Below are positions 1-35,392 of a stretch of DNA of 35,470 nucleotides, piece by piece (the stretch's first letter is position 1; the number at the start of each line of letters is the position of its first letter). The DNA comes from Heterotrichella gracilis (taxonomy: Eukaryota > Sar > Xanthophyceae > Tribonematales > Xanthonemataceae). The notes below the pieces were generated by a model. The model worked only from the letters and a program-made list of their open reading frames with translations, ran no database searches and was not told the DNA's origin. The position numbers and the translations under genes are program-made. Location of the stretch: assembly GCA_032358255.1 (NCBI GenBank), contig JAULBX010027628.1, positions 1-35,470 on the forward strand, written 5' to 3'.

Positions 1-790
1 TTGAACTCAGCGTCAGCAGAGGTAGATGACAGAATTGCCACCAGCCTCTTTTTCTCTTCCTTACATTGTTTGTCATAATCAAGTGTGACTAACTTGTAAA
101 TACACCCGTTTCATATTTGAGTTTGTTATTGGTGTGACTGTTTTATTGCCCCTCCGCCACCCCACCCCCTCCTTCCCCCCAGTGGGCATGTTAGCATGCT
201 TTTGTCATACTTTGTGTTGGGGCACCACTTGACTTGGGGTCAATGCATCCTGAGGCTGAGGATGACAGGGAGATCAACCCACATTGCATGGATCACTCAA
301 AGGGGTGCTTACATCATTATCGGCCTGCATATGGGTATTTGATGCTTGGGTATACATTTTACCACGTGTCTATTTGCGCCTGTGTGCATCAAAAGCATCC
401 ATCTCATATTCATTTGTTTTTTCGTCTACCTATGCATATTATGTATATCTACTATATCTACGTACGTACTTAGATAAACACAATAAGTGACGAATATAAA
501 ATATCTATTTACATATTTTTCATTTACTAATTATATTACCTATTAATTATATTCAGTTGTTTCAGCTACTTGTTTGGCTATCTACTTTTCCACTTGCAAT
601 TGATCTGTTCAGCACGTCAACCCCGCCTTTCTTTCATTACGCTGTATATCATGCATTGATCACTAAGTCTTCCTATTCTCTCATGCATGTCCACCCCATG
701 TGTGCAGCCAACACCTTTTCTTTTATTCATGTATCATTTATTGGACTAATTAATCTTTGGTGTTTAAGCATGTCCACTCCATGTGCGCAG
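1..790 (+). other. Intron 8 of gene A (3' part)
   Basis: No coding sequence is supported here. The stretch aligns by eye with intron 8 of gene B (about 11990-12256): both share a 'gtaaatacac..gttt' block, 'tgtgactgttt..ttgcccctcc' and a C-rich tract, and both end at a 'ccatgtgNgcag' acceptor. It is therefore the 3' part of the intron before exon 9 of gene A, and exons 1-8 of A lie left of the window. The short open frames at 234-490 and 557-991 have no cysteine-module content and are chance or shadow frames. A second, false copy of the exon 9 acceptor sits at 686-720. Confidence 0.7.
686..720 (+). repeat. Echo of the exon 9 acceptor and exon start (gene A)
   Basis: These 35 bases match 769-803, which span the true acceptor and the first 13 bases of exon 9, at 33 of 35 positions; the offset is 83 bases. 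The echo keeps the AG and the 'ccaacaccttttc' exon start but then diverges into AT-rich intron, so it cannot serve as a full exon. Confidence 0.85.
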
Positions 791-3700
791 CCAACACCTT
801 TTCCGCCACTATCAGCTCTTCCAACCAGGTCACCCCATTGCTGGCCGGCCTCAAAGCTTGCGCACCCCTGCCCACCGACCGCTGTGCATCCTCCGACCCA
901 AAGACTGGCTGCACCTCTTGCGGCGAGGGTGCCAGGTTCGCTCAAGCAGCCTACTGGCCACCGCCCACCCCTTACATTGCTGCCTTTCTGAAATCCTCCC
1001 AGAGCCAGTGCGTGAGCTGTGATTTCAACCTCAACTGCGCCACCTGCGGACTCCTGGCTGGCACTGGAGTAGAGGCCTGCCTCACGTGCCCCAAAGGCTA
1101 CACGCTCGAACAAATCACGAGAACCGCTCCCGACAACACTCCCTACACCACAATGAGATGCGTCCTGAAGGCCGTGAACTCAAGCTCTGCTCTGTGCTCT
1201 GCGATGGTGAGTGTGGTGACGGCTGGGGGCGCCAGGAGCGGTGGTGTGGGAGAATAGGGGATCAGTGCTGGTGTAATACGCAGTGTAGGGACCAGCCAAT
1301 ATGCTCTTGGGGAGGCAGAAAAGCTTTGGGCACCCACCAGCCCTTGCCGTTTGATATGACCACGTGCATCACAACTTTCCCTACACCACAATGAGATGCG
1401 TCTTGACGGCAGTGGGCTGTTCTGGGCAGGCAAGTGCTCTCCTGAAACATGTTGGAAAGGGGTGCGTGGGTAGGAAATTTCTCTCATGTTGTTGTACTGC
1501 TTTAGTATTTATGATTTTCTCAGTTTCATTAAAGCAGGCAGGTAGAGCTAGTGCTGCAGGGTGGCGCCTACAGCCGTGTGATTGGCCAAAAGCTTTATTA
1601 CTGGTTGTAGTCTGCAAAGCGTTTGGTAACGACGACTTTTGTATTACCCATGCATTCGATTTACCCATGCAGATGCACCATGCATTTGACCTTTGGATTA
1701 CCCATGCATGGAAATCCACCTCCACTTAGTGTGACAGCGGGTGGCAAGTGCCGCAGCCCAGCAACCCTAATCCTTGACTCCTAATCCTGGTTACCGGTTG
1801 TTGCTTGCTGATTGGACACCTGCCGGCCACTTGTGTGCAGGCAGGCGAGGGCTGCATCCCAGCACCCCTAAACCCTTAGCCCTACACCTGGTGTGCAGGG
1901 CGAAGGCTGCATCTCGTGCGAACGTCCTACTTCTACTGCCTTCTATTGCACCGCCGCATCCCCGCCCCCAAAGGGGTACTGGTACTTTCAATATGACGAG
2001 GGAGGTCTCGGCAAGGAGAAGTGTCCAACCAATTGCTTGAAGTGCGAGAATTTCAACGGGTGCTCGGCATGCAAGCCTGGCTACCTGCTACAAACGTACC
2101 AGTTTGGTCATGGAGACGGGCGCTGCATCTCCATGCCGGATCTGAAGTGCGCCAAGTCAGGTGCCCACGGGTGCACATCGTGCAAGAAGGGCTACTTCTT
2201 AAGAAATGTGCGCCCCCTGCCTACCCTGCCTTACTTGTGGTGTAATGCACCCTGCAATGCACCCGTAGTTGGCATTGTTTTCTCCCTTTTTATCCTCCCC
2301 CTCTTGGTTGGCCACCCATCAAGCTTGGTGCATGCGTCCTACATTGGTAGGCCCAAGCTTGGGGTTTGGGTAGGGCATACGTCAACCCTAATGCGTACAC
2401 TAGGTGCACCCGCATGGAGCTGTTGGAGCCGTTAGCAGTGATATATAATTGGACATTTTGTATATATTTTATTTTTGAGTTTTAGTACTCATAGAGTTGT
2501 TGAAGTTGTGGGCTAAATGGGCACAAGCCCCCTTGGAGATTGCAAAAGTTTTGCATGAAAGGCTTACAAGGCTTTGGATGCACGTATAGACAACCAAGGG
2601 TTTTATTGTGTCTTTGTATACATGCGTTTTGGCCCTGGGCCACACCAAATCTGGCAGCGTGATCACAATTGTGGGTCACATTCCTTGCATGCAGCCGCAT
2701 TCAGGATGTGTGTGGTAATGCATGTGTCAAGCCAAGAGAGGGGTTGCCCACCAAGAGGCCAATGGCTCACTGGTGCACCTGCATCTACACGAGGCAAATC
2801 ACATGGCAAACCCTAAACCCTTAACTTTAAAACCTACTCATTGGTTGCCCTCCAAGGGGTCAATGGCTTACTGGTGCACCCAGCATCATTGAGGCAAACC
2901 ACGATGTCAAAACCCTAAACCCTTTACTCTAACCCTAATCCTACGCTCAGGCATTAGGTGCCCCACTGGCTGATGGATGCATGTGCTGGAGGCACACCAC
3001 AGTGAACCCTATACCCTAAACCCTAGATATCTGCATGCAGGAGGCGAGCTATCAGGGCAAGCATGACATTAACCCTAAACAGGAACCCTAAAACAGAAAC
3101 CCTAAATGTGCATGCAGGAGGCAAACTACAACAACCAGCCCAGCTTTGGAGCGTGCATTAAGTGCCCCGCCGGGTGCAGCGAGGCCTGTGCGAAGGACAC
3201 CGGGTGTGGGAGTTGCAAGGTGCGGGGTGCAAGGTTCAGGGTTCATGGTTAGGGTTCAGGGTTTTGTACTGTTGTGGCTGTGCGAGGCCTGTGTGGAGGA
3301 CACGGGGTGTGGGAGTTGCTAGGTGCGGGGTGTAGGGTTTTAATCCCGGGTTTCGTACTGTTCTGGCTGTGGCGAGAGCAGTGGTGGTCCAATGACAGCC
3401 ATGACGCAGGGTGAACCCTACACCCAAAGTGAACCCTACAACCTAAGCCCACCATGCAGCATTTGCCTAACTCGCTGATGGTCGTGACCAGCATTGTAGA
3501 AAGGCATGACACTCAAGCTGATGATAGGGCATGGAGAGATCGACACCAACCAATCAACCACAAACAAAGAAAGAAACAAAAGGCGTTCCAAGCCGTCATC
3601 GGCTTATTGCCTAGTGTGCCCCTGAAGGGCACACATGAGGAACACTAGGTCCACAATGTCATGCGTAGTATAGTGAGGAAACAAACAAACACGTAATTAA

Positions 3701-6008
3701 ACTTGGAGCAGGAATTTGAGGCAATGCGCACGAATGAGTTCAAAGCGCTTCATGAAAAGCCATGACTGTGTCGAAAAACCCTACACCCTGAAACCCTACA
3801 CCTTAACGTCCTAAACCTTCCGTTGCAGGCCTGCTACGACTCCGTACACCCTACACCCTGCAACCCTAACCCTGCACTCGAAAACCCTAACCCTTCCGTT
3901 GCAGGCCGGCTACAACTCTGTTGAAGTGGGATCACCATGGGGTGATCCGACTCAAGCTTACGATATACCAATCTACACATCATGCGCCCCCACACCCCCT
4001 GCACCATCCTGCAACCTCTACTCAGATAACCCCGCGGGCCTGACCTTCCCTGTTGGCTACCAGAAGACTGACGGCTGTGCTGCATGCTCTTGGAGCGCTG
4101 GCTGCACACATTGCAAGCCGGGGTACTACAAGTGAGTGCAGGCGGCTAGGGCGGTGGACTTAGAAGGGTTTAGATTTGCTCCGGGGACACTGGCAGCACT
4201 TCATGCAAGCCTGGGCACTACATGTGGGTACAGGCAGCTGGGGCACTACAGCTAAGGGTTTTGGGTTGGACCTTTGCGGTTTAGGGTATCTAGGGTTGCT
4301 CCGAGCGCACTGGCTGCACTGCCTGCAAGCCTGCATCCTACCACTTGCCAGGGTATTGCATGTGAGTGCAGGCCGCTAGGGTATTGAACAGTGTAGAACT
4401 ACGTAGAAGGGGAAGGCAACCCTTTGTTGATGATTGGCTTAGAGTAATGGGGCTAGGACACAATGGTGCATAGCAGATGGTCGTTTGATTAGGAGATGGC
4501 CATTTGACAAAGCATAGGATTTTAACCATTGATCAAGTAGGTATAGTCACCATGCTAGGGGGGAATGCTCGGGTAGGTGTACTCACCATGCTAGGGGGAA
4601 CCCAGGCCCACATGTTCTGCCCTGTCATTGAGGACTTGAGGCCAAACACGCATGTACAAAGGGCAAGCCTTGTCCTTTGACCAATGTGGGCATGCAACCT
4701 CTCACCGAGAGGACGCCGCGCAGTGCAGTGCACTCAAGGGGTACTACAGGCATGCCAATGTTTCATGTGCATGTGTAGCATGTGCCACGGCGCAAGTGTA
4801 CCGATAAGTGGCTGCCATTACCTGCAACTACTTGTGATCATGTTGTTGCAATCGCATGCGATCATCCTCATCGGTTGTAATACTCGATTGCGCAGGTGGA
4901 GCTTCAAGTGCCTGCCATTGCATGCTTTTACTTGTGATCATGTTGCTGCAATCACGTGTGATTATCACCTCATTGGGTGCAATAATTGTTACGCAGGTGG
5001 AGCTTTAAGTGCCTGCCATGCAACATGTCCCCTGCTGCCGAAAACACCACAGCGGCAGACTGCAAGGCGCGCAAGTGTGTGGATGGCGAGGGCTGTAGCA
5101 AGTGCCCAGAGGGATACGTGCACATCCCCAGGAGCAAACCCAGTGGCAAAGGGCTTCCTCCCACTTGCATCAAGTGCACCGTGGTGGGCATGGGCTGCAC
5201 CGACTGCGATGCCACAATTGTGCGCTTGGCTGACTATTACCTGCGATCACTGTCATCACGTTGCTGCAATGATGTGGGATCAGTACGCCAATAGATGCAA
5301 TCAACGTTTGCGATGCAGCAAAAGGGTGGCGCCTGGTTAGCCTGAAGCATTGTGATCCCTTGTGAAAATATTTTCTGCTTCATTTAACTACTGATGATGG
5401 AACCATGTTGCAGCAATCATGTGCGATCGCCTCATTTTCATGCATCAACCATTTGCGAAAGGGGTATGCTTACTGAACATGTTGCTATTACTTCCAATCA
5501 CCAGCAATCATTACACCCAGAGCTGGCTGTTCCCACCCCCTGATCAAATTAATTAATAACATGTCAACATCAGAGAAAAGCAACTAAAGCTAAAGCAACC
5601 CGGGGCTGAAATCAACAATTACTCCCATCAGGATGCGGTAGATGCGGCGATTGACACGTTGCTTATGCTCTACAGGGCTGCATGACGTGCCCCAAGGGGT
5701 ACTACAAGACGCCAGGCAAACCCACAAGCTGCACCCCCTGCCCCACCGGCTGCAGAAAGTGCATGGATGGCAAGGGCTGTACCCAATGTGCGCCAAACTT
5801 CTTTGCAACAAACGGCGCCGATGGTGGGGGCAATGCAGCGATGCAGTGCAACAGCTGCCCCCTGTATCTGGACTGCCTGGGCGACTGCCACCCCACCAAG
5901 GGCTGTAGCAAGTGCCCTGTGGGGATGAAGCTAGCCAAGGCAGCACCTCGTTTTGGCGCCAAACTGCTGGTAGGGCAGGACCTCACGATGATGTGCGTGG
6001 CCGCCTGA
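791..6008 (+). CDS. Gene A: secreted Cys-rich repeat protein, 3' part (exons 9-14)
   Basis: Partial gene; the 5' exons are outside the window. Exons by homology to B and C: 791-1206, 1899-2207, 3118-3219, 3905-4131, 4997-5219, 5676-6008 (TGA). All introns are GT-AG. Intron phases are 0,0,0,2,0 and the incoming phase is 1, as in the complete paralogues. The joined frame is open for 535 residues. Content is repeated CxxC and GCTxC modules: 'GCTSCGEGAR' in exon 9, 'GCTSCKKGYFLRN' ending exon 10, 'PAGCSEACAKDTGCGSCK' in exon 11, 'GCTHCKPGYYK' ending exon 12, 'CLPCNMSP' and 'GMGCTDCDAT' in exon 13, and a last exon of about 110 residues ending 'LTMMCVAA'. No membrane segment or GPI-like tail is visible. 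Exon 9 differs from B and C in its second half (about 1030-1206), which has a longer tail. The function is unknown to me; an extracellular structural or surface role is inferred from disulfide-type cysteine spacing. Exon boundaries are predictions from splice motifs and paralogue agreement. Confidence 0.85.
1379..1414 (+). repeat. Echo of the exon 9 tail inside intron 9 (gene A)
   Basis: These 36 bases repeat exon positions 1141-1176 with three mismatches, 238 bases downstream of the original and inside the intron that begins at 1207. The tail of an exon has been duplicated into its own intron. Confidence 0.85.
1829..1860 (+). repeat. Echo of the exon 10 acceptor (gene A)
   Basis: 'cttgtgtgcag' followed by 'gcgagggctgcatc' at 1829-1860 mirrors the true acceptor and exon start at about 1888-1914 ('ggtgtgcag', 'ggcgaaggctgcatc'). 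The spacing is about 55 bases, with a CCCTAAA stretch between the copies. Confidence 0.75.
3031..3330 (+). repeat. Exon 11 with echoes of both its ends (gene A)
   Basis: The true exon 11 is 3118-3219. Its acceptor and head ('gcatgcag' + 'gaggcgagctatc') occur as a decayed copy at 3033-3055, about 77 bases upstream. Its tail and donor ('gcgaggcctgtg', 'gggtgtgggagttgc', then 'aggtgcgggg') recur at 3282-3330, about 105 bases downstream; there the last codon reads TAG where the exon has AAG. CCCTAAA-type repeats fill the upstream interval and TTAGGG-type repeats the downstream one. Confidence 0.8.
3820..3850 (+). repeat. Echo of the exon 12 acceptor (gene A)
   Basis: 'ccgttgcag' + 'gcctgctacgactccgt' at 3820-3846 copies the true acceptor and head of exon 12 (3896-3925), 76 bases further on. 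CCCTACA/CCCTAA repeats separate the two. Gene B has the same arrangement (about 15139-15172 versus 15223) and gene D likewise (about 34909-34930 on the minus strand). Confidence 0.8.
4186..4384 (+). repeat. Tandem echoes of the exon 12 tail and donor (gene A)
   Basis: Downstream of the true donor (4131/4132) the exon tail recurs in decayed form at about 4186-4232 ('tgcaagcctgggcactac', then 'gtgggtacaggcagct') and about 4308-4380 ('ctggctgcactgcctgcaag' ... 'gtgagtgcaggccgctag'). Each echo keeps the donor-like GTG(A/G)GT and the 'gcaggcNgct' that follows it. TTTAGGG-type repeats fill the gaps. Confidence 0.8.
4828..4996 (+). repeat. About 101-base tandem duplication at the start of exon 13 (gene A)
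   Basis: The block 'cttgtgatcatgttg..' through 'cgcag' + 'gtggagctt.aagtgcctgcca' occurs twice. The false acceptor is at about 4891 and the true one at 4992-4996, an offset of 101 bases. Gene B carries the same duplication at 15770 and 15872 (offset 102), so it predates the A/B split or was homogenised. Confidence 0.85.
5220..5675 (+). other. Intron 13 of gene A with GATCA-rich repeats
   Basis: Noncoding. It contains the repeat family 'tgcgatca..', 'gttgctgcaatNNNgtgNgatca', 'gatgcaatcaacgNttgcgatgcagcaaaagg', also present in intron 13 of B (16103-16426) and, inverted, in C, D and E. It ends at the acceptor 'ctctacag' before exon 14. Confidence 0.65.
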
Positions 6009-8596: not shown

Positions 8597-11500
8597 GTAA
8601 GGAGTACCTTGCAGTGGGGCAAGTCCTGCCAGTCGCCTTTAAACATACCAGCATGTGCAGCAGTGTCGCGCGTCTGCATTCTGCACCCACGCAGCTTGGC
8701 ACCCAGCAGTGGTGCACCCTAAACCCTAATGATGCCATAAACCCTAAATCCTAAGCACCCACGCAGCTTGGCGCCAGCGGTGGTGCACCGCGTGTAGCAC
8801 AGTAGTGTGGAGGTGACTAGGGATTGTTCAAAACAAATTGGAACCCAAACCCTTAGATAGAGCTTTTGGCACTGGCACTGGTGCCCCCTGGTTCGCTGGG
8901 CGCCCTAAAAAACCCTGCACCCTTGCTGGGCAAAGGGCTTAAACCCTTAACCCTAACCCTCCACACGCACAGTGCCAGAGACAAGGAGCATAGTTGGTGT
9001 GTCATGTGTTTATTGAGTTTGTGTCTCTGCCTATGCACAGGTGCGGCGCTGGGTACACGCTGATCGGCGCCCCACCTTACCAAGGCCCAAAGAACCTGCA
9101 CGCGGCACCTGTGTCAAAGTGCTACAGCTGCACCTCAGACCTGCACTGCCCCAGTGCGCAGCGCTGCATGCCAGGTGCGCGAGCTAACCCTAAACCCTAA
9201 ATCCGTACAAGCGTACTACTGTTCACCCTATGCTGCAGTTGCAGCTCGACCTGCACTGTCCCAGTGCGCTATATGCCATGTGCCAACCCTGAACCCTAAA
9301 CCCTGAACCCTAAACCCTAATGGTGCTCACTGCCGCCATGCCCAGCTGCTGGTGCGGGTTTAGTCCCAGGTGGGGACATACTCATGCAGGTGTATATCTA
9401 CAGTGCACCACTGTTAGTGTACTGATGGACCCCTCTTTTGGAATCCTCCCCCCTTTTAACATTTCTTTTATACGTGTCAATTTAATATATAAATGATAGA
9501 ACGACTTCATGTTTATAATTTATGTAAACTACATATGTTTTCCTTCATTTTAGAAGGAAGACTAACTTTAAAATGTATTTTTTTTCTGGCAGGTCTGGGC
9601 TGCACACTGTGCGGATCAGGGGACATCCTCATGCAGGAGCTGGTCCCAGAGCTGTACGATGGGGGCTACCTTGGCCTCCCCGGAATGGTCGATGCCAAGG
9701 TGCAGCGATGCGTGAAGCCCACATCCCTGGGGTGCGCCACGTCAGCTGACTTCCTGGGCTGCATCACATGCCCCAAAGGTGCGACGCAGGGAGTAATAGT
9801 ATAGGAAAAGTAGTTGGTGGCTGTCCAAAACGCTCCACGAGCTGATTAGGTGTTTAGGGTTTAATGCTTAGGGTTCGGGGCACACCACGAGCTGATTCGA
9901 AACGCTCCACGCGCCAGTTCCTTGCTTCTTTGATCGTTGCGCACCTGCAGCAGGTACCAGGGTTTAGGGTAAAGAGATTTGGGGCCTCCAGGTGGAGGTA
10001 TCAGGAGGCTGCATGCACATCTTGGCCACCCTCCCAGATACAGGGTTTAGGGTTTTTGTTAGGGTCATGGTTTCAGGGTTTGCCTCCTTTGCCGCAGGCT
10101 CAGTCAGGGTGGCTGAGGCGTACTACCACAACGCGTATGCCTTCCAGACCAAGCTGGGCTTGCCCACCAGCAACTTCACAGCATACGCAACAGGTGGGTG
10201 GGTGGGGCTGAGCGGGAGGAGAGGGTGGATGGTGCAATGCCACGGCGAACAAGATTGGCAATTGGGGTTTCTAGAAAGGAATGAATGGAACGCCGCTTTC
10301 CATTTAAGTGGCAGAATTTGTATTGTCTGCACCCATGCTGTGCTGGGTCGAGAGTTAGAAGAAAGCTGCTGCATTGAGGGGGGTGTTGGGTTTCCAACTG
10401 TAGCAGTCTGTTACCCTCACCCTGGTTGAGGGTGCCCCCTTCAGGAATTTATGTACTGCAGCCTTAACAAACAGCCATTACACTCATGGCTGTGGTTTGA
10501 TGGTCTGCAAGATGGTCATACGCAGCAGCCACTGTTTAGGGTTTAGGTTTAAGGTCTGTGCAGATGTTCATTTGCAGCAGGCGCTGCAGTAATGGTACGA
10601 TGGTTTGATCCTTGCACAGTATACTAAATGCTGGCCAAAACAGTTTCCCAGCGGCTAAAAAATGCCTACTTATTGGCCAAAGGTGCGGCAAAGGAGGCGT
10701 GTTTAGCCACGTTGTAGCCACCAGTTGCCAGGACGCAGCCACACACGGTTCCCATAGTGGTAACATCTATAACATCTATTTTATGACGCAAATGTACCCT
10801 CCTCGCATGCTACAGCTCGGCTTTGAGCAGGGTGCGACCCTTAGAAAATCCCTAGAGTAGTTATGTGCTCTCTTCACATACTTCACACTACGTGATGTGC
10901 CAAAATCTTGCGCAGGGTCGTCCTGCTTGCCCTGCTCCAAGCTGGGCTGCAGTGCTTCTGCCTGCAAGGACACAGTGGGATGCACCTCCTGCCCCACTGG
11001 CAAGTACCTAGGCTTCAGTGAAGACCCTAGGGTACCCATCTCTGTGCGCACCTGCGTGGCCCCGCCTGGTTTGACCAAGGAAAACTGCAAGTGAGTACTT
11101 ATTAAGAGACGCACAGCAAGCGCATTTCCGCAATTGAGGTGCAAACTTTGGCAAGCAGGAGTTAACCTGCAAGGTGTTGGGCATTTGACCCCGAGCGATT
11201 TATACTACAAAAAGGTAGCATTTGGGCATCCACTGCAAGCATTTGAACTGCAAACCTCATTCCTTCTTCGATATGCCAGGCTTTCTGCTTGCAAGCTGCA
11301 TTCCTTCCCACCATGCATGCTTTTTGCTGCCAAATTGCGCTTCTTGCTCTGATGTCCCTTTAGTGCAAAAGGAGGCATGCCCATTCGTGGTATGGTTTTC
11401 CATGTATCTGCCGAGCCAAGCTGTGGCGGTGTGCAAGAGACCTCCACTACTAGAGTCTGACCTCCACTACTTAAGAAAGGTGATTATAACTCTAAAATGA

Positions 11501-14500
11501 GCCGCACACATTCACCCTCTGCAGGGCGTTTGCTTCCAGTGGCGCATGCGCACAGTGCAACCCGGGGTACATGCTCTACCAGACGCCAATCATAGGCAAG
11601 ACCCTATTCAAAGCAGTGCACCCCCTGCCACTCAACCTGGCCAACACACAATGCAAGAGCTGCGCAACGCATGGCAGGTAGGTGGTTTTTTGATGCAGTT
11701 TAAGTTTTAACAAAGCCATACACACCAGGGCTATAGCAAACTACCAAAACCTCAAACCCTAACCCACAGGTGCGCCCAGTGTGACTCCACCAAGGGCTGC
11801 ACCTCCTGCCCCGCCAATTCCCTGATGGTTCTCGACCTCAACAATACCCTACTAGGGTCCCAGGTGTGCCGCAGCTGCCAGGAGGTGCTAGGGTGCGAGG
11901 AGTGCAACGGGAAGACAGGGTGCACCAGCGCATGCCCAGGTGAGAGAAGCGGGTTTGGGTGATGGGAAGGAATGGGAGTGGATATCATGAGTGCGTTATA
12001 ACATCAAGTGAGATTAAACTGTAAATACACTTGTTTAAGATATGAGTATGTGACTGTTTTCTTGCCCCTCCACCATCTCACCCTGTCTTTCCTTTTCTTT
12101 TTCTTTTTGGCTATTATAACAATGCAACTGCTGTTTAATTATGCATCTGTTTAGCATGTCAACCCTACTTTTCTTTGATGATTTGTATCACGCTATATAG
12201 TATGTATCGTTCACTACACCTTCATGTGTTCACGCATGTCCACCCCATGTGTGCAGCCAACACCTATTCCGCCACTGTCACCACCTCCAACAAAGCCAAC
12301 CCCCCTTTGGCCGGCCTCAAGGCATGCGCACCCCTGCCCAACAATCTTTGTGCATCCTCCGACCCAAAGACTGGCTGCACCGCTTGCGGCGAGGGTGCCA
12401 GACTGACTCAGGCGGCCTATTGGGGCCCCTCCCACCCGCTACATCACCGCCTATTTGAAGTCCTCCCAGAGCCAGTGCGTGGGCTGCGACTTTTGGCGCC
12501 TCTGCGCCACCTGCGATGACACAGGCAGCTGCCTCACATGCCCCAATGGCACATCGCTCATTGGCGGCGACCTTGGAACCAGCCAGGCGCGCTGCAGCCG
12601 AAAGGGATCTGAATGCGCGCAGAAGGTGAGCGGGTCTATACAGTTTAAACCTGTGCGTGTGTAGGAAAGCGGGTAGTGCTAGGCGCCACCGGTGCCCGTG
12701 CTGCAAAAGTAGCGTTCAAGACTGTGCAATTGGATTGGATTGGTGTCAGCAATTACAGCAATTGAATGCCGCATGAAAGGGTATATACTGAGCTTTTAGC
12801 TTTTAACCATTTGTCTTGTCAACGGCGGCAGCAGTGGCTCAGCAATCCTACACCCTAAACCATGCACCTGCCCGTCACACGTGTGCATGTGCAATCTGGC
12901 GACGACTGCGTCCCAGACCCTAAACCCTAAACCCCAGTACCCCAACCTGTTGCTGCTGAAGCCTGCCCGCCACGTGTGTGCAGTTTGGCGAGGGCTGCAT
13001 TGCTTGCGAATTCGATGGTTGCAACACCGTATCCCCAGCCCCTGCGGGGTACTATTACGGCATCGAAGTGTATGTTTACAAGGTGAAGTGCCCAGCCAAC
13101 TGCTTGTGTGAGAACTTTGCTGGGTGCTTGGGATGCAAGCCCGGCTCCCTCAAGCAAGTAGCCTTTGAGGATTATCCCGGTGGACGCTGCATCGCCGTCG
13201 CGGACCTGAAGTGTGCCAAGTCAGATGCCTACGGGTGCACGTCGTGCAAGAAGGGCTACTTCCTGAGAAATGTGCGCTCCCCGCCCACCTGCCTTACCTG
13301 TTTAGGGTGTATGGTGAACCCTAGGGTCCCTGCCTTTCCTGCTTTTCCTGCAATGCAATGCACCCTGCGTTTGTAGGCATCTGTGCGCTCCCTATCTTCC
13401 TTCCCTCACTTGGTAGGCCATCAGTCAAGCGTGCATGCGTCCTGCGTTGGTAGGCCCTAGTGTAGAGTTTGGGTAGGGCATCGGTGAACCCTAATACATC
13501 AGCTGTGTGCACCATCATGGAGTAAGTGGAGTGGCTTAACCACTTGTTTTCCCGGGATTGCATGCAGAGCCTCCCGGAGATTGCATGCAGAGCCTCCCAA
13601 GATGCACTCGGGATGCACTCGTAGTCAACACAGTTTCCAGTGGTATATATATATATATAGCCCCGCGGCACCACCAATGTTGACAGCTGGGCTTGTTTGT
13701 CACATTTGTTGACAATATGCCCCGCTGTCAACATTGGTGGTGCCGCAGGGCTATATATACACATACAGAAATACATACATCAGTGGAAACTCTGATATAT
13801 ATGCGTGCAGTAGAGTGTGCAACATCCCTTGTGTGAAGCCAAGAGAGGGGTTAGAGGGGTTGCCCTCCAAGGGATGAATGGCTCACTAGTGCACCCGCAT
13901 CTCCATGAGGCAAACCACGATGACAAACCCTCAACCCTACACGTTGGCATTCACTGCCCCATCGGCTGATGGATGCATTTGCTGGAGGGTAATCACGATG
14001 CTCCCCCGATATACACCCTAACCCCTAGACGTGTGCATGCAGGAGCGGAACTATGGCGGCCCATACATTAACGTGTGCCTGCCATGCCCCGCTGGCTGCA
14101 GCGGGGCCTGTGCGAAGAACAGCGGGTGTGGGAAATGCAAGGTGCGGTAGGTGCGGGGTCAGGGTTTACAATTTAGGGCGCTTTATGCTTCAGGCTTCAC
14201 CTTTCTGGGTATATCCTGGTAGGGTGTTCTTCAGGGTTATGGTTTAGGTTGATGCTGTGCTGCCTAGGCTCTGGCAGTTCTTAAGGTGCAGGTTTTAAAG
14301 TTCAGAGTTTGGGGTTTAACCTTGATGCTGTTCGGCTTTAGCTGGGGCGATCCCCATCTTCCATCAGGTCCAAGTGTGGGGAACATTGGATGTTGTGGTG
14401 TTCAAAGAGGTAGAGCTGTAGTGAACCAGTCACAGACATGGTTTACTCTACACCCTAGACCCATGATGTAGCCTAAACCCTAATATCTAAAGCCATGATG

Positions 14501-22700: not shown

Positions 22701-25700
22701 TAGGGTTTAGGGTGTATGGCGGGGTACACAATGTAGTTTGCGTTTGGCCATGCATCCATCAGGTATAGGGACACTAAACGCCACCGTTTAGGGTTAGGGT
22801 TAGGGGTGTAGGGTTTTAGGTTTGCCATCGTGCTTTGCCTCATATATGATGCGGGCGCATCAGTGAGCCGGCGACCCCTTGGAAGGCAATCCCTTCTTTG
22901 GCTTGACACTTGTCATGCTGCACATGCCCACAGAATGCAACAGATGTGGCCTACAAAGCACGCTTGCAGCAATGTGATCAACAAGCGTGATCATCAAACC
23001 TAGTGAACAAACCAAGTGGACCGCACGTGGTGCCCGCTGCGGGTGGCAGGCTCGCGACTCTTAACAACTGCATGGTGGTGCACGTAGTGGATGCAGAAGG
23101 GTTGACCAATGCCCTGCTCAAACCGTAAACTGGGGCCCATCAGCATCGGACGCTAAGTGTATGCTTGACCTGCGGCCTACCAAGCAAGGGGAGAACGGGG
23201 GCGCACAATGGCCTGCCAACGCAGGGTGCATTGCACCACAGGTAAGGCAGGGTAGGCAGGGAACCTAAACCCTAAACCGTAAAGAGGCAAGGCAGGGCCG
23301 GCAGGGAGCGCACATTTCTCAGGAAGTAGCCCTTCTTGCACGACGTGCACCCGGTATTGTCATCTAACTTGGCGCACTTGAGATCCGAGAAGGGGATGCA
23401 GCGCCCGGTTCCCTCGCCCTCCTCGTACTTTTGGTTCAGGTAGCCCCGCTTGCATGCCACGCACCCCCCGCCCATGTCGTAGTTTTTGCAATTCAAGCAG
23501 TTGCTTGGGCATTTATTCTTGGTGATGTAGTTTGACCCCAAATAGTACCAGTACCCCTTGGGGGCCGGGCCTACGCTTAAGCAGTAATCCTGTCTGCAAG
23601 CGATGCAACCCTCGCCAAACTGCACACATGCGGCAGGTAGACGTCAGCACAACAGGGGTCTAGGGTTTGGGGTTTAGGGTCTAGAGTTTAGGGGTTAGGG
23701 TTGCTGAGCTACTGCAAGTGGCCCTGGACTCTAGCTGCTATCACATAACGTGGGGGTTGAATGCACGGGTCAACCAAAAGTTGAATTGCCTCAATGTGCC
23801 ATACCGCATGGTGCTCATTCTATACCTTTTGGTGTGGTTGCTGACACCATTAAAATTTGAATCCTATCCAATTTGTGGTCACTGACTCCAATCCAATCCA
23901 ACCCAATCCATTTCAATCGGAATCGTGGTTGCTGACACCAATCCAATCCAATCTCATTTGCACCACCTTTGCAACACAAGCACTGGTGGCGCCTAGCACG
24001 GTTTGCCTTCCTACCACGCACGGGTCTTGGATCACTATAAAACCACTCACCCGCGCCGCGCAATTCCAGTCAGTCAGGTTGCAGAATTTGCCATGCAGGT
24101 AATCGTCGTCTGCCAGTGACGTGCCGTTGGGGCAGGTAAGGCAGCTGCCTTGATCATCGCAGGTAGCGCAGGATTTGTACCATTGGTCTCCACAGCCCAC
24201 GCACTGGTTCCGAGAGGCTTTCATATAAGCAGTGATGTAGGGTGTGGGCGGCGGCAAGTAGTCTATTTGAGCTACCCTGGCGCCCGCCTTGCAAGAGGTA
24301 CAGCCAGTTTTTGGGTTGGAGGTGTTGGAGGGTGCGCACAGGCTGTTGTCGGGGGGAGGGGCGCATGCCTTGAGGTCGGCCAGGGAGGGGTGGGCCTGGC
24401 TGGAGTTGGCGACAGTGTTGGAAAAGGTGTTGGCTGCGCACATGGGGTCATCACACAAAATGAGTACATGTTATACATGATACTGTGAAATGATTCAATG
24501 CTGTAAAATGATTCAATAGTATATGTAAAACTTGAAAGGTTGGGTGGCCATGTGTGAACGGATGATAGATAATAAATAAAAATGAATGCTCACTTCTTGC
24601 ATTCTATGCGTTCCAGCAGTAGCGCTTCAGTTTACAACAACTATGTGAAAATCCCGGGCCGAGCGGTTTCCGGTCCCCAGGAGGCACGCAGAAATCTGCT
24701 TAAGCAACTTGCTCTCTTATACAAGAAACGTGAAATTGTGATACTTATAAGGCAACCTGATGCCCACTCCCAAATGTCTCCATCACAAACAAGCTAGTCC
24801 TTCTCCGAAACCTAACCCTAACCCCGCTTCTCTCACCTGGGCATGCGCTGGTGCACCCTATCTTCCCGTTGCACTCCTTGCACCCCAGCACCTCCTGGCA
24901 GCTGCGGCACACCTGGGACCCTAATAGGGTGTTGCTGAGGTCGGAAACCATCAGGAAGTTGGCGGGGCAGGAGGTGCAGCCCTTGCTGGAGTCGCACTGG
25001 GCACACCTGTGGGGTGAGGGTTCAGGGTTCAGGGTTTAGGGTTTAGTTTTTTACAGTTGGCGGGGCAATGGGCCCACCCCTTGCAAGGTTACCAGCTGGT
25101 AGGTTCACACTGAGCTCATCTGTGGCAAAACCCCACACAAGGGTCGCGGGCACAGGGATCAACCAGGAAAGTTGCAATGGTAACAAACATAAATAAAAAA
25201 CCCTGAAAGGGTAAATCTGCAGCAACCATATGCACTGCTTGCTTTGTTGGGGCAACTAAGGAGCAAGCTTTTGAAGAATGGGGATGGGGCTGGGGAGGCA
25301 GAGACAACGTGGAACTTTGGGTGTTGGAGGAGTTTGGGCAGTTGCTTGATAAGTAGCCAAAACCGGTTGGGTTGCTGTGGATCCCAGTATTTTCTTTTCC
25401 TGCAATAGGAGCGCAAGTTGTCCTTTGCATGCCTCAGGATCGGGAAACCGCTCCAGTCGGATTTGCCTAGGGCCATGCTATTTATGGCTATATATGCATA
25501 TGCATATGTTATGTTACTTACTTTTATGGCTATATAAAACCATTGACCCTAAGGCAAAGCGCCACCCACCTGCCATGCTTTTCGCAGCTCTTGCACTGGG
25601 TGTTGGCCAGGTTGAGTGGCAGGGTATGCGCTGCACCAAATATGGTCTCACCCGATGGTGGCGCCTGGTGGAGCATGTAGCCAGGGGTGCAGTGGGAGCA

Positions 25701-28700
25701 TGCGCCACTGGTGGCAAAGGCCCTGCACAGGGGGAATGTATGCGGCTTGTTGTAGGGTTTAGGATTTAGAGTTAAGCAGTGGAAAGTATGTTCATGCAGA
25801 TAGCAAGCAGTGCGCATTGCCATAGCCTGGCGTGGCTCGTTCATCATCAACACAACACAGCAAGAATGGGCATGCATCATTTTGCACAGGAAGCAACAAA
25901 GCGATGAGAGTTACAAGCAGTAAGCGTGCGCTAATGAAGAAGGAATGAGGTTTGCTATTAAAAGACCTGCAGTGCATCCCCAAACCCTAAGCCCCAAACC
26001 CTGCAGGTATATCATGCTGCCCTTGCTTTGTCCCTCAATGTGCGGGGATGCGGAGGTTTGCAATTCAAATGCTTGCAGTGGATGCCCGAACCCTAAACTT
26101 CAGCCCTAAACCCTTGCAGGTAAACTCCTGCTTGATTTGGCCCTCAATGTGCAGGGATGCGCTTGCGGTGCGCTTTTTAAGCACTCACTTGCAGTTTGCC
26201 TTGGTGGAGCGAGGTGGGGCCACGCATGTGCGCACAGAGATGGGCACCCTAGGGTCTTGGCTGAACCCTAGGTACTTCCCAGTGGGGCAGGAGGTGCATC
26301 CGACTGTGTCCTTGCAGGCAGCGTCCTTACAGCCCAGCTTGGAGCAGGGCACGCAGGAAGACCCTGCGCAAGAAAAACCACACACATAGCTCCCGCAAAT
26401 GAGTACGTGAACATAATAAAAAACATATATAAAAACCCGTGCCCTGCTGTAGTTTAGGCTGTAGAATGCGAGCAGGGCACAATTGCACAAACCATCAAAC
26501 TACAGCCATTCCTTCAGTCGTTTGTCAAGGCTGCAGCATATTGACACCCCGGTGAAGGGGGACTACCACTCCTGTAGCGTGATGGCGACAGTGTGGAAAC
26601 AGACTATGCTGCAGTCAGAACCCCGTCCGCCACATCCCCACTGCAGTCTGTTTCTTGAAGGTATCAACCCAAGGGTGTAATTGATAGATACTCTGCCACG
26701 TAAATGGAATGATGACAAAAAAGGCATTACACATCGCTAGTCGACTTGTGTGCCTTAGCACTGCACCATCCACCCTCTCCCCCCGCTCAGCCCCACCCCC
26801 CACCCACCTGTTGCGTATGCTGTGAAGTTGCTGGTGGGCATGCCCTTCTTGCCCATTAAGCCATATGCGTTGTGGTAGTACGCCTCCGCCACCTTGACTG
26901 AGCCTGCGGCAGGGGGGCAAACCCTAAACCCAAAACCAAAACTTGAAACCTTAACGGGTGATGATGGTACGCCTGCTGCACCCGGATAAGCCTGCAACAA
27001 GGGGATAAACCCCGACACCCTTAACCCTTGCATCCAAGATGGTAACCATGCAAGAGTTGGTATCTCCAACTGGAGGATCCTAAACCCTAAACCCTAAACC
27101 CTGCTACCTGCTGCAGGTACACACATCTGGAACCAAGAAATCAACTCGTGGTGCGTTTTGGACGGCAACAATCTGGTCTCCATTGATATTATTATTCCTC
27201 CCTGCATCACACCTTTGGGGCATGTGAGGCAGCCCAGGAAGTCAGCTGTCGTGGCGCACCCCAGGGATTTGGGATTCACGCATCGCTGCACCTTGGCATC
27301 GATCAGGCTGGCGAATTCCTCAAAGCTCCCCCCATCGTAGCCCCGGTACAGCTGAGGAACCAGCTCCTGCATGAGGATGTCCCCTGCTCCGCATAGAGCG
27401 CACCCCAGGCCTGCCGAGAGGGAGTTTTTAGAATGAGGGGTGCATTAATGTAGTATCAATGGTGCACTGTAGGGATAAATCTCCATGCATAAGTTAATAA
27501 GGGGCGCACCTGCATGGGTATGTCCCCACATGCGCATCTGCTGCAGGGCATGGCAGCAGTGTGCACTGTAATGATTAGGGTTTAGGGTTAAATGGAGGCA
27601 AGGCATCAGACTGGGGGCATACACACAGGTATATGGGTCTCGGTGGGGTTTTAGGGTTGACGATGGGAACCTTGGCATGCTGGCTCCACTGGGGCAGCGC
27701 AGGTTTGAGCTGAAGCAAAGGATTTAGGGTTTAGGATCTAGGGATGTAGTTTTCAGAGTTGAGCTCGCCCACCTGTCGACACCTGGTATGCAGCGCAGGT
27801 CCGAGCTGGAGCTGCAACATAGGGTCTGCAGTACTTAGGGTTTATGATCAGGGTTGTAGGGTTAAGCGCCGCACCTGGCATGCAACGCTTGGCACTGGGG
27901 CAGTGCAGGTCTGAGGTGCAGCTGTAGCACTTCGACACATATGGCACAATAAGTTCAAGTGTGCGTTGATAGTTGGCGCCGATCAGTGTGTACCCAGCGT
28001 CGCACCTGTGCATAGATAGAGAAAGAAGTAGATTGGTAAGTAGACTATACAATGAAAAAGACAAAAATACTGCTGCCTTGTTGTCTTTCTTACTACACTC
28101 CTCAGAAAGACTGCTGTCTTTTTCTGTCTTTCTCACTGCTTGACTACACTCCTCGTCTCTAGCACCTGTGCGTGTGGAGGGTCAGGGTTGAGGGCTCGTG
28201 CTCTTTAGCACTGAACCCCTAACCCAGGACCATGCGAGGGTCTATAGCGCCCAGCCAACCAGGGGCCACCAGTGCCAATGCCAAAGCCCTATCAAAGGGT
28301 CTAGGTTACAACCCACTTGACCCAGTCCCTAGTCACCTCGACACAACTGTGCTGCACGCGCTGCACCACTGCTGGCGCCCAAGCTGAAAGGGTGCTTAGG
28401 GTGTAACGTTCAGGGTTTATATCAAACCATTAGGGTTTAGGGTGCACCACTGCTGGCGCCAAGCTGCGTGGGTGCACACTGCAGACAGGCGACACTGCTG
28501 CACATGCTGTTACGTGTGAAGTAGACAGGACCCGCTGCAAGGTACTCCTTACTTGCTGCAGTAGCTAGGGTCGCCGAGGCACTGCGCACAGCCGGCCGTT
28601 CCAGCCTTGCAGGAGGAAGGGGTGGCACCCAGCGCCAGCCTCCTTGCACCAGCCTCCAGCCTCTCGCTAGCTTGGCACACCACCAGGAGCAGCAGCAAGC

Positions 28701-30880: not shown

Positions 30881-31081
30881 CACACATAACCGACACTATG
30901 GATGGCGTTATATTTTCTGCACCCCGGAAATCCAGGAAAGCCACTGGTGACAAAGCAAAGCTGATTGAGATTGGACCACACACATATACCTAACACTTAA
31001 CTAACACAGACGTTCCCCCAAACAACCCTTCTCGTACTCCCATGGAGAGAAGCAATCTACAAAGGTGGCAGCCGGAGGAAT

Positions 31082-31500
31082 GTAGTAGACCCCACTACAA
31101 AAGCAGTGATTGGCACCACTCTTGGGTCAGGCATATACATACCACCCCCTAAAACCTCAATAGCCATTCCACAAGACTACAGGGAAGCAGGCACCAATAT
31201 TCTCATCAACCCAAGCAGTGCAGGACCAACAAAAACCATCAACAGGGCCGAATTAGTGGCTCTGTACTACGCGGTTAAACTTGGCACAGGAACAGTCATT
31301 GCAACCGATAGCGCAAGCAGCATGGATCAAATAAACAAAATGCTGAATCATCCTCGGAAAATGAAGTACCACTAGCACAAAGAGTTATTACAAGAAATTG
31401 TCATAGGATTCAAAATAGCCCAGCGCCCATCACAATAGTAAAAGTCAAGGCTCACTTTGGGATTGTTGGTAATTGGGACGCCGAGCAGTTCCAGCACCCC
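31082..31500 (+). pseudogene. Retroelement remnant: RNase H domain
   Basis: Frame 31106-31375 contains 'INRAELVALYYAVKLG' (helix with the catalytic Glu) and 'VIATDSASSMDQI' (catalytic Asp). A later, shifted frame near 31435-31490 contains 'IVKVKAHFGIVGNWDAE', equivalent to the usual K-KAHxGxxGNxxAD C-terminal motif of LINE RNase H domains. A stop (31373) and a frame change separate the two parts, so it is dead. No reverse transcriptase motif (such as YADD) is seen between 30880 and 31082; only about 200 bases are there. Confidence 0.75.
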
Positions 31501-31559
31501 TCCAAATGCATTGGCCTGCATGTGACACTGATGCAGCTTCTGCAACAACCCATGCAGAA

Positions 31560-32203
31560 GAACAGGCTGGCTCTACATCCACCATGCCTGGCAGCACTCT
31601 GTTTGAACACCTGTATAGCCCACTGAAACAGCACATGGAAAGGACACACACATTGGGTGCATCCAACACAGACAACGTCTACTACACTGTCTGGAAAAAT
31701 ATTGTACCTCTTGCAGATGTGCCACTCAGCCAAAAACTCGTGACAAGCCCCAACATTACCTTCTCTGAACGCAAACACGGCCTCCAATACCGATATTATG
31801 GACTCTACACTCGCATGCTAGCATACAGATATGGCCATGGCATTGCCCCCACACCTAACTGTCTCCTATGCGGGCAAATGGATAGCGGCCACCAGAGTGT
31901 CAGCGGATGCCCTGCACTCTCAGGTTTAGTGACAGAAAGACACAACATGGCAGGCAGATTAATACTACAAGCAATCTTCAATGGACAGCATGGTGTACAT
32001 GGTGCATCTCTCATAATGACCAATGTTGGAAGGAAAGAATGGAGCAAGACGGATTAAATCTTGCTGAAATTTATGCTAGCACCATCCCCGAATGGGTTCT
32101 CCCACAACTTACACTAAGCGCACGACGTTGCCTTTGCCCGGATGGACTGCTGATTCAACACGCACGAGGCGCCATTGCAGACGGCATTGTCAACATAATT
32201 TAA
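31560..32203 (+). pseudogene. Retroelement remnant: CCHC and restriction-like endonuclease-like tail
   Basis: Frame 31473-32057 carries 'CLLCGQMDSGHQSVSGC' (CX2CX6HX5C, 31860-31910), then 'ERHNMAGRLI' (RHN at 31938-31946). After a +1/-1 frame change, the 31907-32203 frame carries 'STIPEWVLPQLTL' and 'RRCLCPDGLLI' (PD at 32138-32143). A CCHC knuckle followed by RH(D/N) and then (K/R)xPD is the known signature of RLE-type LINEs (R2/CRE/NeSL, also Dualen in Chlamydomonas). The assignment is by motif only; the frameshift shows the copy is inactive. Confidence 0.65.
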
Positions 32204-32293
32204 TTTAGATACACTAATGACTGCTTCCAACAACACCAACAAAGCAGGGTAGACAACCAACACACAGGTCTGATAGCCGAGCTGACCCTTGAA

Positions 32294-32392: not shown

Positions 32393-32507
32393 AGAAAACT
32401 ATGGCATCTCTCATTAAACTCTGTGTATCAAAATCATCAGCTAGAACCACAATGACCAAAGTTCACATTGAATCGATTAAATGGCTCCACAAATTCTACT
32501 ACACCAA

Positions 32508-32745
32508 GGCCCACCTTGAACAATCCCACAACGTGTAACGCCACACTCAACGAGGGGAGGGCTACGACCCGTTCCCGAGTCAGGCCCTTGAGCCAAACTG
32601 GCTTAGGCCATTATGGTAGGCACTACAGGGACACATGCAGGAATGACCAGCCTCCGAGGACGGCTCTCCCTGAGTTTTTCTCTTCCTCATCCAACGCCCT
32701 CATTATTGAGATGAGGAGCGTAATTATTTAATCATTTATTTGTTC
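32508..32745 (+). mobile_element. SINE-like or LINE 3'-end repeat (copy 2)
   Basis: Second copy of the element at 22010-22300, same plus orientation, diverged but with long shared blocks and a short 'attatttaatcatttatttg' tail (32722-32742). It directly follows the LINE remnant and inverted repeat, so it may be the LINE's own 3' UTR. Confidence 0.7.
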
Positions 32746-33524: not shown

Positions 33525-34819
33525 CTACGCTCCCATGCACATCATGGTGAGGTCCTGCCCTACCAGCAGCTTGGCGCCAAAACGAGGGGCTGCCTTGGCT
33601 AGCTTCATCCCCACGGGGCACTTGGTACAACCCTTGGTGGGGTGGCAATCGCCCAGGCAGTCCAAATACAGGGGGCAGCTGTTGCACTGCATCACTGCGT
33701 GGCCCCCACCATTGTTGCCGTTTGTTGCAAAGAAGTTTGGCGCACATTGGGTGCAGCCCTTGCCATCCACGCACTTTGCGCAGCCGGTGGGGCAGGGGGT
33801 GCAGGTGGTGGGTTTGCTTGGCGTCTTGTAGTACCCCTTGGGACAGGTCTTGCAGCCCTGTGGGAGCATCAAGCAGCATGTCAATTGCCGCATTCGATGA
33901 TTTGATTGTTAAGTCTAGCCTCAAATTGACAACTTTGATGCCAACCAAAGCAGTCAATACAAATATGCAGCTGAAATGATTGCTAACGATTGGAAGCGAT
34001 TGCATTGAATAGATCAGGCAACTGTGCCCCTTTTGTGGCTATGCTTTTGGGTTACAACATTTCCAATGAGCTGATGATTACTATGAATACACGTGATTGC
34101 AGGTAATGGCCAGGCAGATGTACCTTTGTGGCATCGCAGTCGGTGCACCCCATGCCCACCACCGTGCACTTGGTGCAGGTTGGAGGAACCCCACTGCCGA
34201 TGGGTTTGCTCCCAGGCATGTGCACGTATCCCTGGGGGCACTTGCTGCAGCCATCATAATCCACACAGCTGTTCGCCTTGCAGTCTGCCGCTGTGGTGGT
34301 AGGCGAAGCGGGGGACATGTTGCATGGCAGGCACTTATTGGTCCACTTAAGGCGCGTGGAGGTCCACCTGCGATGCGCAAAGTGTTGGCATGCTTGTAAT
34401 ACCCCTTGAGTGCACCGCAGCGTATGTAGTGTGCAACCTCCGTTTGATGACAAGTTGCGCGCTGTATTAGTCAAGAACAACCCTCAACCCTCACCCATAA
34501 GGCCTTAACCCTATATTTGAAGGCCTATATCCCCGACCCAAAACCCTTTTAAGTTCAGCGCCCTAGCTGCCTGCACTCACTTGTAGTACCCCGGTTTGCA
34601 GGAAGTGCACCCAATGCCCTCTGGGCCAGTGCAGGTGGCACAGCCATCATTCTTCTGGTAGCCAGCAGGGAAGGCCAGGGCCCCGGAGTTGTCCGAGTAG
34701 AGGTCGCAGGGCGGGGGAGGACCGGGGCGGCTGCATGAATTGTAGGTGCCGGGTAAGGGGCACTGGCCATCGCAATCGGATTGCCATGGCGATTCCACGT
34801 CAACGGAGTCGTAGCCGGC
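33525..34819 (-). CDS. Gene D: secreted Cys-rich repeat protein, 3' part (exons 12-14)
   Basis: Partial at the right edge. Exons: 34819-34581, 34367-34124, 33857-33525 (TAG), all GT-AG, phases 2 and 0 as in the paralogues; open for 271 residues. Exon 12 reads 'AGYDSVDVESPWQSDCDGQC', 'CDLYSDNSGALAFPAGYQK' and 'GCTSCKPGYYK'. It has two cysteines not seen in A or B near its start. Exon 13 begins 'WTSTRLKWTNKCLPCNMSP', longer than in A and B, and ends 'GMGCTDCDATK'. Exon 14 is nearly the same as in C ('GCKTCPKGYYKTPSKPTTC' ... 'LTMMCMGA'). Nothing is broken in the visible part. Exons 1-11 should lie to the right, unless the inverted segment at 35393-35470 marks a truncation. Role as for the other copies. 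Confidence 0.83.
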
Positions 34820-35392
34820 CTGCAGCGGAAGGGGTAGGGTTATAGAGTGCAGGGTTAGAGTGTTAGTGTGTAGGGTTAGGATTTTAGGGTGTAGGGTGTC
34901 CGGAGTTGCAGCCGGCCTGCAGCGGAAGGGTTGGGGTGTAGGGTTTAGTGGTGTAGGGTTTGCTGAGCATTGTTGCTGTCGCCGCCACGGCTGTCATTCA
35001 AGCGCAAGGGTGATTTTATTGAGCACCTCTAACAGTCTTGCAAGCCTTGGTTGGCTTCCTATATGTGACTGTAAAATAATATCTCGGGCATGTGCTAGAC
35101 ACTGCGTGTGCTAGTGCCCACTACGCAAGAAAGAAAAGAAAAGAAAACGGACGCCAAAGGCGTAAATAATGCAGCATAGCAACTACGCATAGCCCCCAAG
35201 ACAAGTCAATCCGGAAACCCAGCGCGTGAGGGGGAAAGTGTAGTGGTGGAGGGAGTGGTGGACGCGGGTGGAGCAACCGAGTGTCTGTACCAACAATACC
35301 AACCCATATTTACCCAGCTTTTGTAGACTTGACCAATGCAAACGACCTGCTCAATAACCTACACACCAACCAATAAACCTATAAGTAAGTCA
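34820..35392 (-). other. Intron 11 of gene D (acceptor side)
   Basis: Noncoding. It holds an exon 12 acceptor echo at 34909-34930, TTAGGG/TGTAGGG runs (34835-34965, CCCTAA in gene sense), a stretch resembling intron 11 of C ('accNacccatatttNcc.agcttttgtag', 35296-35330 versus 21596-21625) and a purine-rich AAGAA tract (35128-35149). Homology to intron 11 appears to end before about 35390. Confidence 0.6.

Follow-up and report, generated by a model that had tools for sequence, protein, structure and literature searches.

In Heterotrichella gracilis, the edges of exons, usually together with the splice junction, recur inside the neighboring introns. These copies, here called echoes, are likely to be the scars of recurrent local duplication that lengthens introns. 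They are described for a cysteine-rich multi-exon gene that is present in several copies across the window, which is the entire contig C511 (35,470 bases) of an assembly of 68.5 Mb in 903 contigs. Within the window the echoes are confirmed as real, and a comparison with unrelated genes establishes that they are a property of the genome, not of the cysteine-rich family alone. In general, they lie in direct orientation, at the same border as their source, and are present or absent between paralogs; in three cases the filler between the copies is confined to its own locus or family.

Exon-edge echoes in the window

Four copies of the gene, A to D, were modeled on shared GT-AG junctions (Table 1), with an exon numbering that differs from that of the preliminary description of this DNA. 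Copy D reads through 905 codons without an internal stop across the junctions common to the copies, and the frame of copy B is broken in exons 1 and 8 (by reading). For each splice junction, a probe of 25 nucleotides (nt) of intron and 40 nt of exon was aligned to the adjacent intron, and acceptance of a copy required p ≤ 0.01 relative to dinucleotide shuffles and p ≤ 0.02 relative to foreign introns. By this test, 19 of the 64 junctions of copies A to D pass with a copy in the adjacent intron and 45 fail; the junction itself is crossed by 16 of the 19 significant copies. At two acceptors (exon 8 of copy A and exon 11 of copy C) the upstream exon is not modeled and the intron start was set by hand, and both were dropped from later counts, which therefore comprise 62 junctions.

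The existence of echoes near exon edges, claimed previously from eight listed pairs, is thus borne out beyond shuffled and foreign-intron controls, and all eight pairs are present. It had also been claimed that these duplications straddle the junctions, which is correct for seven of them: 686 and 769 (34 of 36 positions identical, offset 83), 3033 and 3109 (offset 79), 3820 and 3896 (76), 4891 and 4992 (102), 9238 and 9124 (110), 15435 and 15539 (104), and 15770 and 15872 (102). The remaining pair, 1141 and 1379, is a real repeat (44 nt, 89%, offset 238), but its exon positions, counted from the donor, are -74 to -30; it ends 30 nt before the donor and does not straddle the junction. Nearest echoes in the window lie at offsets of 58–125, and a junction has at most three extra copies, as observed at the exon 10 acceptor and the exon 11 donor of copy D.

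Echoes in unrelated genes

Unrelated genes were compared, as had been proposed, and echoes are found in chaperonin, light-harvesting and kinesin genes. The controls are 45 introns in 15 genes (40 from CCT chaperonin and 5 from LHC light-harvesting genes) modeled from Pfam hits, and a kinesin set of 17 introns on seven contigs, in which eight gaps lack an acceptable junction and several of the junctions kept score weakly. At a score of ≥30, junction-crossing echoes occur at 14 of 62 family junctions versus 11 of 90 CCT/LHC junctions, a count from which neighbors failing the model filters were left out. These 11 junctions sit in six of the 15 genes, five of them in gene C902. One LHC intron, on C211, holds an unmodeled exon; it is inside this count and was left out of later intron statistics and simulations. 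The acceptor echo of C134 is of low complexity and doubtful, and the CCT/LHC echoes number nine without C134 and C211. In the kinesin set, whose introns are short (mean 210 nt), an echo is found in one of the 17 introns. Thus, the suspicion that echoes might be no commoner here than in other introns of the genome is half justified: the feature is genome-wide, yet the rate in the family is nearly twice that of CCT/LHC and above that of kinesin.

A Markov null gives at most 0.67 introns with an echo per class and set. Against this expectation, 7 donor and 9 acceptor echoes are observed in the 31 family introns, 6 and 6 in 44 CCT/LHC introns, and a single acceptor echo in the 17 kinesin introns. 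A null of reversed sequences counts mirror repeats and was dropped in favor of the Markov null; the inverted rows of its scan are hairpins in place, not inverted echoes. Masking of telomere-like sequence leaves junction-crossing alignments at 4 and 6 of 16 family sites and at 10 or 11 of 13 control sites; elsewhere only the exon part remains aligned. Some control echoes are obvious to the eye: C902 (CCT) has a plain 122 nt triplication, with three tandem units of exon tail and donor, and the acceptor copy of C418 (CCT) is identical at 130 of 166 positions.

Anatomy of the echoes

At a score of 28, direct copies are found with 23 of 184 probes and inverted ones with none of the 184. An echo at the same border occurs at 29 of 138 borders of introns of ≥200 nt (score ≥28). 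In these 69 introns, the opposite arrangement, with a copy of the exon tail at the 3′ end of the intron or of the exon head at its 5′ end, is not observed at this score. The exon part of the echoes measures 11–90 nt, 90 being the limit of the probe, and nearest offsets overall are about 58–184.

Echoes take two forms, namely plain tandem copies and near-identical short copies that flank unrelated filler. The second form is seen at a CCT donor on C395 (57 of 58 positions identical over 58 nt, with an unrelated spacer of 55 nt) and at a kinesin acceptor on C59 (22 of 23, spacer of 54 nt). Each of these spacers, of which that of C59 contains a short palindrome, matches only itself in the 68.5 Mb genome. 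The spacer at exon 12 of the gene family, which is related to intron 12, has at least eight genome matches, all of them within the family. Since the searches skip very common words, these match counts are lower bounds. None of the three spacers was found outside its own locus or family, and in these three cases the echoes do not derive from a dispersed repeat, the alternative that had been raised against them.

In the family, 11 of 19 echoes have a telomere-like hexamer in their far flank, versus 22% of random intron 30-mers. Such flanks are not general, because the hexamer is found at 1 of 13 CCT/LHC echoes (12% of random 30-mers) and at none for the single kinesin echo. Telomere-like heptamers as such are far over Markov expectation in the introns of the family and of CCT/LHC genes, absent from 60 nt exon flanks, and rare in kinesin introns. 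These repeats are polarized, with the TTTAGGG type after donors and the CCCTAAA type before acceptors; by intron, this polarity has p = 0.0004 in the family and p = 0.19 in CCT/LHC genes, and is practically missing from kinesin genes. The idea that the two ends of an intron pair with each other was rejected. Mean duplex energies for own, mismatched and shuffled ends are -42.2, -43.9 and -42.4 in the family (29 introns), where polarity is strongest and own ends have no advantage; they are -49.8, -46.2 and -47.1 in CCT/LHC genes (29) and -46.7, -40.4 and -43.0 in kinesin genes (5), a small own-end advantage in the controls.

Variation among paralogs and reading frame

The printed sequences of up to eight copies, which are paralogs and not alleles, were compared by eye. 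Intron positions are common to copies A to D with or without an echo, and the presence of the echo varies at all seven junctions compared. At the exon 8 acceptor it is found in A only, with the empty state in B, D, C41 and C493, and at the exon 10 donor it is likewise restricted to A among A, B, D and C493. Other echoes are shared: at the exon 9 acceptor by A, B and C41 (not D), at the exon 10 acceptor by A and D (not B or C493), at the exon 11 acceptor by A, B and C (not D or C493), at the exon 11 donor by A, B, D and C493 (not C, C41, C107 or C29), and at the exon 12 acceptor by A, B and C493 (not C, D or C41).

Of 33 echo offsets, 29 shift the frame and only four are divisible by three (p = 0.005); counting the nearest echo per junction, the figure is 4 of 26 (p = 0.036). 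As weak evidence, this deficit may reflect frame-keeping duplications that become exon, or occasional use of inner sites whose products are then lost.

Local duplication as the probable source of the echoes

In the explanation that we favor, a stretch of about 20–160 nt would be copied in direct orientation beside itself, either as a plain tandem or with about 25–60 nt of unique, locally related or telomere-like filler between the copies. For a copied segment that extends across an exon edge, the outer copy would still provide a correct splice site, all that lies between the copies would be intron from birth, and the protein would be unchanged. Junction-spanning copies would be tolerated because the outer copy still splices correctly. 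Duplications in the interior of an exon would survive only in frame, and copies past a coding end would also be tolerated, so that the net result is growth of introns. The echoes themselves are presumably neutral, and the duplications probably arise in the repair of staggered or stalled breaks. Among the options offered in the preliminary description, tandem duplication or break repair, and growth of introns, are thus the likeliest.

Several features agree with insertion at staggered breaks: the target flanks are duplicated directly in C395 and C59, the inserts of the three spacers are non-mobile or local, and the empty state is seen in paralogs at the exon 8 acceptor of copy A. New introns of Daphnia reportedly formed at staggered double-strand breaks, as Li et al. 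are said to have described in 2009. Published systems are compared here on the available portions of the cited reports. In Daphnia, internal repeats have been proposed to lengthen introns, being found in 55 of 90 new introns and 16.2% of established ones (PMC4202315). Like the echoes, the neointrons have direct repeats left by break repair; unlike them, a repeat of 4–12 bp joins the exon end to the opposite end of the new intron (PMC4202315), while in the echoes 11–90 nt of exon recur by the same border of introns that are common to paralogs. Intron gain by tandem genomic duplication also involves a local tandem duplication with splice signals that leaves the mRNA intact (PMC2891723, PMC3443670). 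By contrast, the echoes double a splice site that is already in place and lengthen its intron, without a new intron position. Rogers and Bendich 2025 reported direct repeats near exon/intron borders and ascribed them to break repair (PMC11782384); however, their survey compared 5′ with 3′ borders and found repeats of 4–30 bp (mean 11.4), whereas with echoes, one border recurs inside the intron to which it belongs. Telomeric repeats, too, have been found inserted at breaks as interstitial sequences, and at 3 of 66 horse loci the target is directly duplicated (PMC7215372). These are mammalian loci, not at exon edges, and here telomere-like filler accompanies the family echoes only. In effect, Daphnia neointrons, tandem genomic duplications and the repeats of Rogers and Bendich have, as far as these portions go, their repair logic in common with the echoes but not their geometry. 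No description of same-border copies of exon edges was found in the open-licence literature, taken by titles and the beginnings of abstracts, among the matches listed.

Excess of copies at exon edges

In simulations of uniform neutral duplication, junction-crossing copies are tolerated, exon-interior ones are not, and similarity derived from exons is lost more slowly. Edge copies then make up 39–51% of detectable events in control introns and 24–36% in family introns. With longer units and no filler, the setting least favorable to an excess, the controls give 404 edge versus 286 intron-only events (59%). Observed repeats were collapsed into events by hand, a judgment rather than a computation, and paralogous events were joined. 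The controls collapse to 13 edge sites, of which 12 were used (without C134), and no independent intron-only event; two introns with intron-only matches are explained by a short copy reaching 3 nt over the acceptor (C902_1790) and by matches of echo to echo (C487). The family has ten edge classes, at the donors of exons 2, 8, 10 and 11 and the acceptors of exons 4, 8, 9, 10, 11 and 12. The exon 8 tail class does not reach the donor, and the count excludes two matches to the interior of exons close to an acceptor, at exon 3 of B and D and at exon 7 of D. The earlier contention that ordinary intron expansion would not predict this pattern therefore holds against the simulations, in which edge copies are fewer than observed.

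This excess is the unexplained and novel part of the finding and, with some related points, weighs against local duplication under neutral filtering as the full account. The hand-collapsed ratios of edge to intron-only events, about 12:0 in the controls and 10:6 in the family, lie above the simulated shares, and something beyond neutral filtering may act at edges. Binomial p values are ≤0.0016 for the controls (0.585^12), ≤0.00031 with the 39–51% shares, and ≤0.028 for the family; they are too optimistic, since the events lack independence, with C902 alone holding 5 of the 11 control junctions. Large deletions, by which intron–intron pairs would vanish faster, are not part of the simulations. 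The family does have intron-only duplications, in six classes (A_i9, A_i12, B_i1 with D_i1, B_i9, D_i5 and D_i8). In addition, echo rates are unequal between gene classes, with an unexplained low rate in kinesin genes, and which copy of a splice site is used is deduced from reading frames.

A model-free scan covered 27 control loci (135 kb; score 36, offset ≤300), with simple repeats filtered and telomere-like repeats masked. It returned 28 direct-repeat pairs, of which 9 are at modeled edges, none is wholly inside a modeled intron, 1 is of another kind and 18 lie elsewhere. By eye, 17 of these 18 comprise 10 additional exon edges (gene C189 accounts for 5, and L068 is possibly a coding end), 2 CCT coding ends, and 5 non-coding or unresolved pairs. 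The two coding ends are repeated downstream of the stop: in L055 (sense 2016-2263) the copy spans the stop codon, and in L052 (5278-5521) it ends just before it (by eye).

The residual excess could reflect intron turnover outside the simulation, or a duplication process that favors exons. In a broader form of the latter, duplication would be concentrated at coding edges, and the copying of exon ends outward, into introns and beyond coding ends, would greatly outnumber the duplication of intron interiors. A dedicated or exon-coupled process would then lengthen introns like a ratchet, and the splice junction itself would be a duplication hot spot. We regard this as unlikely, although it is less so than any of the alternatives below.

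Alternative explanations

A mechanism linked to exons, to transcription or to the telomere-like tracts beside splice sites might direct duplication to exon edges. The surplus of edge events over simulation, the lack of intron-only pairs inside modeled control introns at score 36, and the hexamers flanking the family echoes agree with such targeting. Nevertheless, the hexamer is scarce beside control echoes, and the coding-end duplications favor a general filter at coding edges over a mechanism specific to splicing. Moreover, exon copies stay recognizable for longer, large intron deletions are outside the simulation, and the control events are clustered in few genes. Targeting of this kind is accordingly rather doubtful. 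Improbable, to a clearly greater degree, is a reservoir of alternative partial exons, or of functional decoy splice sites, whose maintenance would serve to diversify the protein or to regulate it. AG or GT does persist at several of the echo acceptors and donors, and the rarity of offsets that are multiples of three suggests that the inner site has at times been used. However, the same features occur in housekeeping genes, some echo sites have been lost, paralogs differ, and, because only 4 of the 33 offsets keep the frame, an exon reservoir is disfavored. The earlier suggestion that partial exons diversify a surface protein is thus left without support.

Introner-like or other mobile elements, inserted at exon edges with long target-site duplications, are slightly less probable again. 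Two recent cases do resemble a target duplication (58 and 23 nt) around an insert of 54–55 nt, and introners are reported mainly in lineages that evolve rapidly, green algae among them (PMC9860276, available portion). Terminal inverted repeats may mark introners as well, and the C59 spacer holds a short palindrome. Yet the introner hallmark of many similar copies is missing, as the C395 and C59 spacers match once each and that of exon 12 matches within the family only; target duplications reported for introners in the same portion measure 3–9 bp (PMC9860276), and here they are at least 23 nt; and some echoes are plain tandem copies without an insert. Least probable, and largely refuted, is an origin of echoes in the known mechanisms of intron gain that leave direct repeats, that is, tandem genomic duplication and staggered breaks. 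Both are documented and both yield direct repeats (PMC2891723, PMC3443670, PMC4202315, in the portions available). Nevertheless, they place the copy of the exon end at the opposite border, which is the case in none of the 69 introns (at a score that leaves repeats of 4–12 bp under the threshold), and they predict a new intron position, while positions here are common to copies A to D with and without an echo.

Features of the window

The features of the window are collected in Table 1.

Table 1. Gene copies and exon-edge echoes of contig C511
Feature	Position	Strand	Remarks
Copy A, exons 8-13	exon 8 at 791..1206; modeled part starts with exon 8 and ends at 6008	+	shared GT-AG junctions
Copy B, exons 1-13		+	shared GT-AG junctions
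Copy D, exons 1-13		-	shared GT-AG junctions
Copy C, exons 11-13		-	shared GT-AG junctions
Gene fragment holding exon 13	18437-18105	-	
Echo, copy A exon 8 acceptor and 13 nt of exon head	685..720	+	source 768-803; 36 nt; 47 nt unrelated spacer
Echo, copy A exon 8 interior tail	1371..1414	+	source 1133-1176; donor not reached
Echo, copy A exon 9 acceptor	1830..1858	+	source from 1888, offset 58
Echo, copy A exon 10 acceptor	3018..3051, end approximate	+	source from 3097, offset 79
Echo, copy A exon 10 donor	3282..3339	+	source 3179-3236, 90%; 45 nt telomere-like spacer
Echo, copy A exon 11 acceptor	3792..3845	+	source 3868-3921; homologous echo in B, C
Echo 1, copy A exon 11 donor	4209..4243	+	source 4117-4151
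Echo 2, copy A exon 11 donor	4347..4381	+	
Two echoes, copy A exon 12 acceptor	4788-4818, 4888-4918	+	source 4989-5019; period about 100; spacer related to intron 12
Echo, copy B exon 2 donor	9248..9310, end approximate	+	source from 9138, offset 110
Echo, copy B exon 9 acceptor	12867..12905, end approximate	+	source from 12962; acceptor AG lost
Echo, copy B exon 11 acceptor	15135..15165	+	by eye in paralog listing
Echo, copy B exon 11 donor	15539..15586	+	source 15435-15482, 43/48
Echo, copy B exon 12 acceptor	15767..15797	+	source 15869-15899
Three echoes, copy D exon 11 donor	21153-21102, 21028-20977, about 20908-20872	-	source 21240-21189
Three echoes, copy D exon 10 acceptor with telomere-like tract	22528..22721	-	spaced 59-66 nt; exon 10 start 22495
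Echo, copy D exon 4 acceptor	26966..27012	-	source from 26924, offset 88, 35/47
Two echoes, copy D exon 2 donor	27650..27804, ends approximate	-	source from 27914; offsets 110, 206
In-frame 21 nt insertion, head of copy C exon 12 (GTGGACC repeated)	34347..34367	-	by eye
Echo, copy C exon 11 acceptor	34901..34937	-	source 34840-34804, 33/37, offset 97

Two of the echoes carry a reservation. The exon 11 acceptor of copy B failed the junction test (p = 0.224 against foreign introns), its automatic probe having matched a different stretch from the one tabulated, and masking of telomere-like repeats leaves nothing but the exon part aligned in the exon 2 donor echoes of copy D. The insertion in exon 12 of copy C is, by eye, the same kind of event as the echoes, retained as coding sequence.

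The protein of 905 amino acids encoded by copy D matches no Pfam family at an E value of 0.01, an Rfam scan of the window gives nothing at gathering scores, and no relatives of exon 13 were found among viral contigs or among bacterial and archaeal ones. A solitary exon 10 tail with its donor lies at 18960-18915 (-) and is, by eye, closer to the echo region of copy A than to a complete copy. The end of the contig (35394-35470) repeats the interior stretch 18835-18911 as its reverse complement (75 of 77 identical), possibly an inverted duplication or an end effect of the assembly. An inverted repeat at 13646-13765, within intron 9 of copy B (104/122 or 100/116 identical in two scans), is a hairpin like the remnants of small DNA transposons. 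Between copies D and C, open reading frames at 31001-32057, one of which has a weak RNase H match under the curated cut-off, are probably a decayed retroelement. Elsewhere in the assembly, contigs C1, C111, C68 and C222 carry uninterrupted aldehyde dehydrogenase frames of 468–541 amino acids, plus one of 720, which suggests bacterial contigs within the assembly. A CP26 light-harvesting exon scores best against a chain assigned to Dunaliella, with one assigned to Chlamydomonas in third place, both ahead of one assigned to Chlorella; by this evidence the source would be a chlorophycean green alga.

Implications for intron growth

The origin of intron sequence and the lengthening of introns have long been under question, and as a rule the DNA from which intron sequence came can no longer be recognized; here it is visible as the adjacent exon edge. 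About 1 in 10 of the sampled CCT/LHC junctions (11 of 90, unevenly distributed) bears a readable scar, so that the size, the age and the splicing effects of such events would be measurable one by one in a single genome. The case also illustrates how correct splicing from birth is possible for a duplication across a splice junction.

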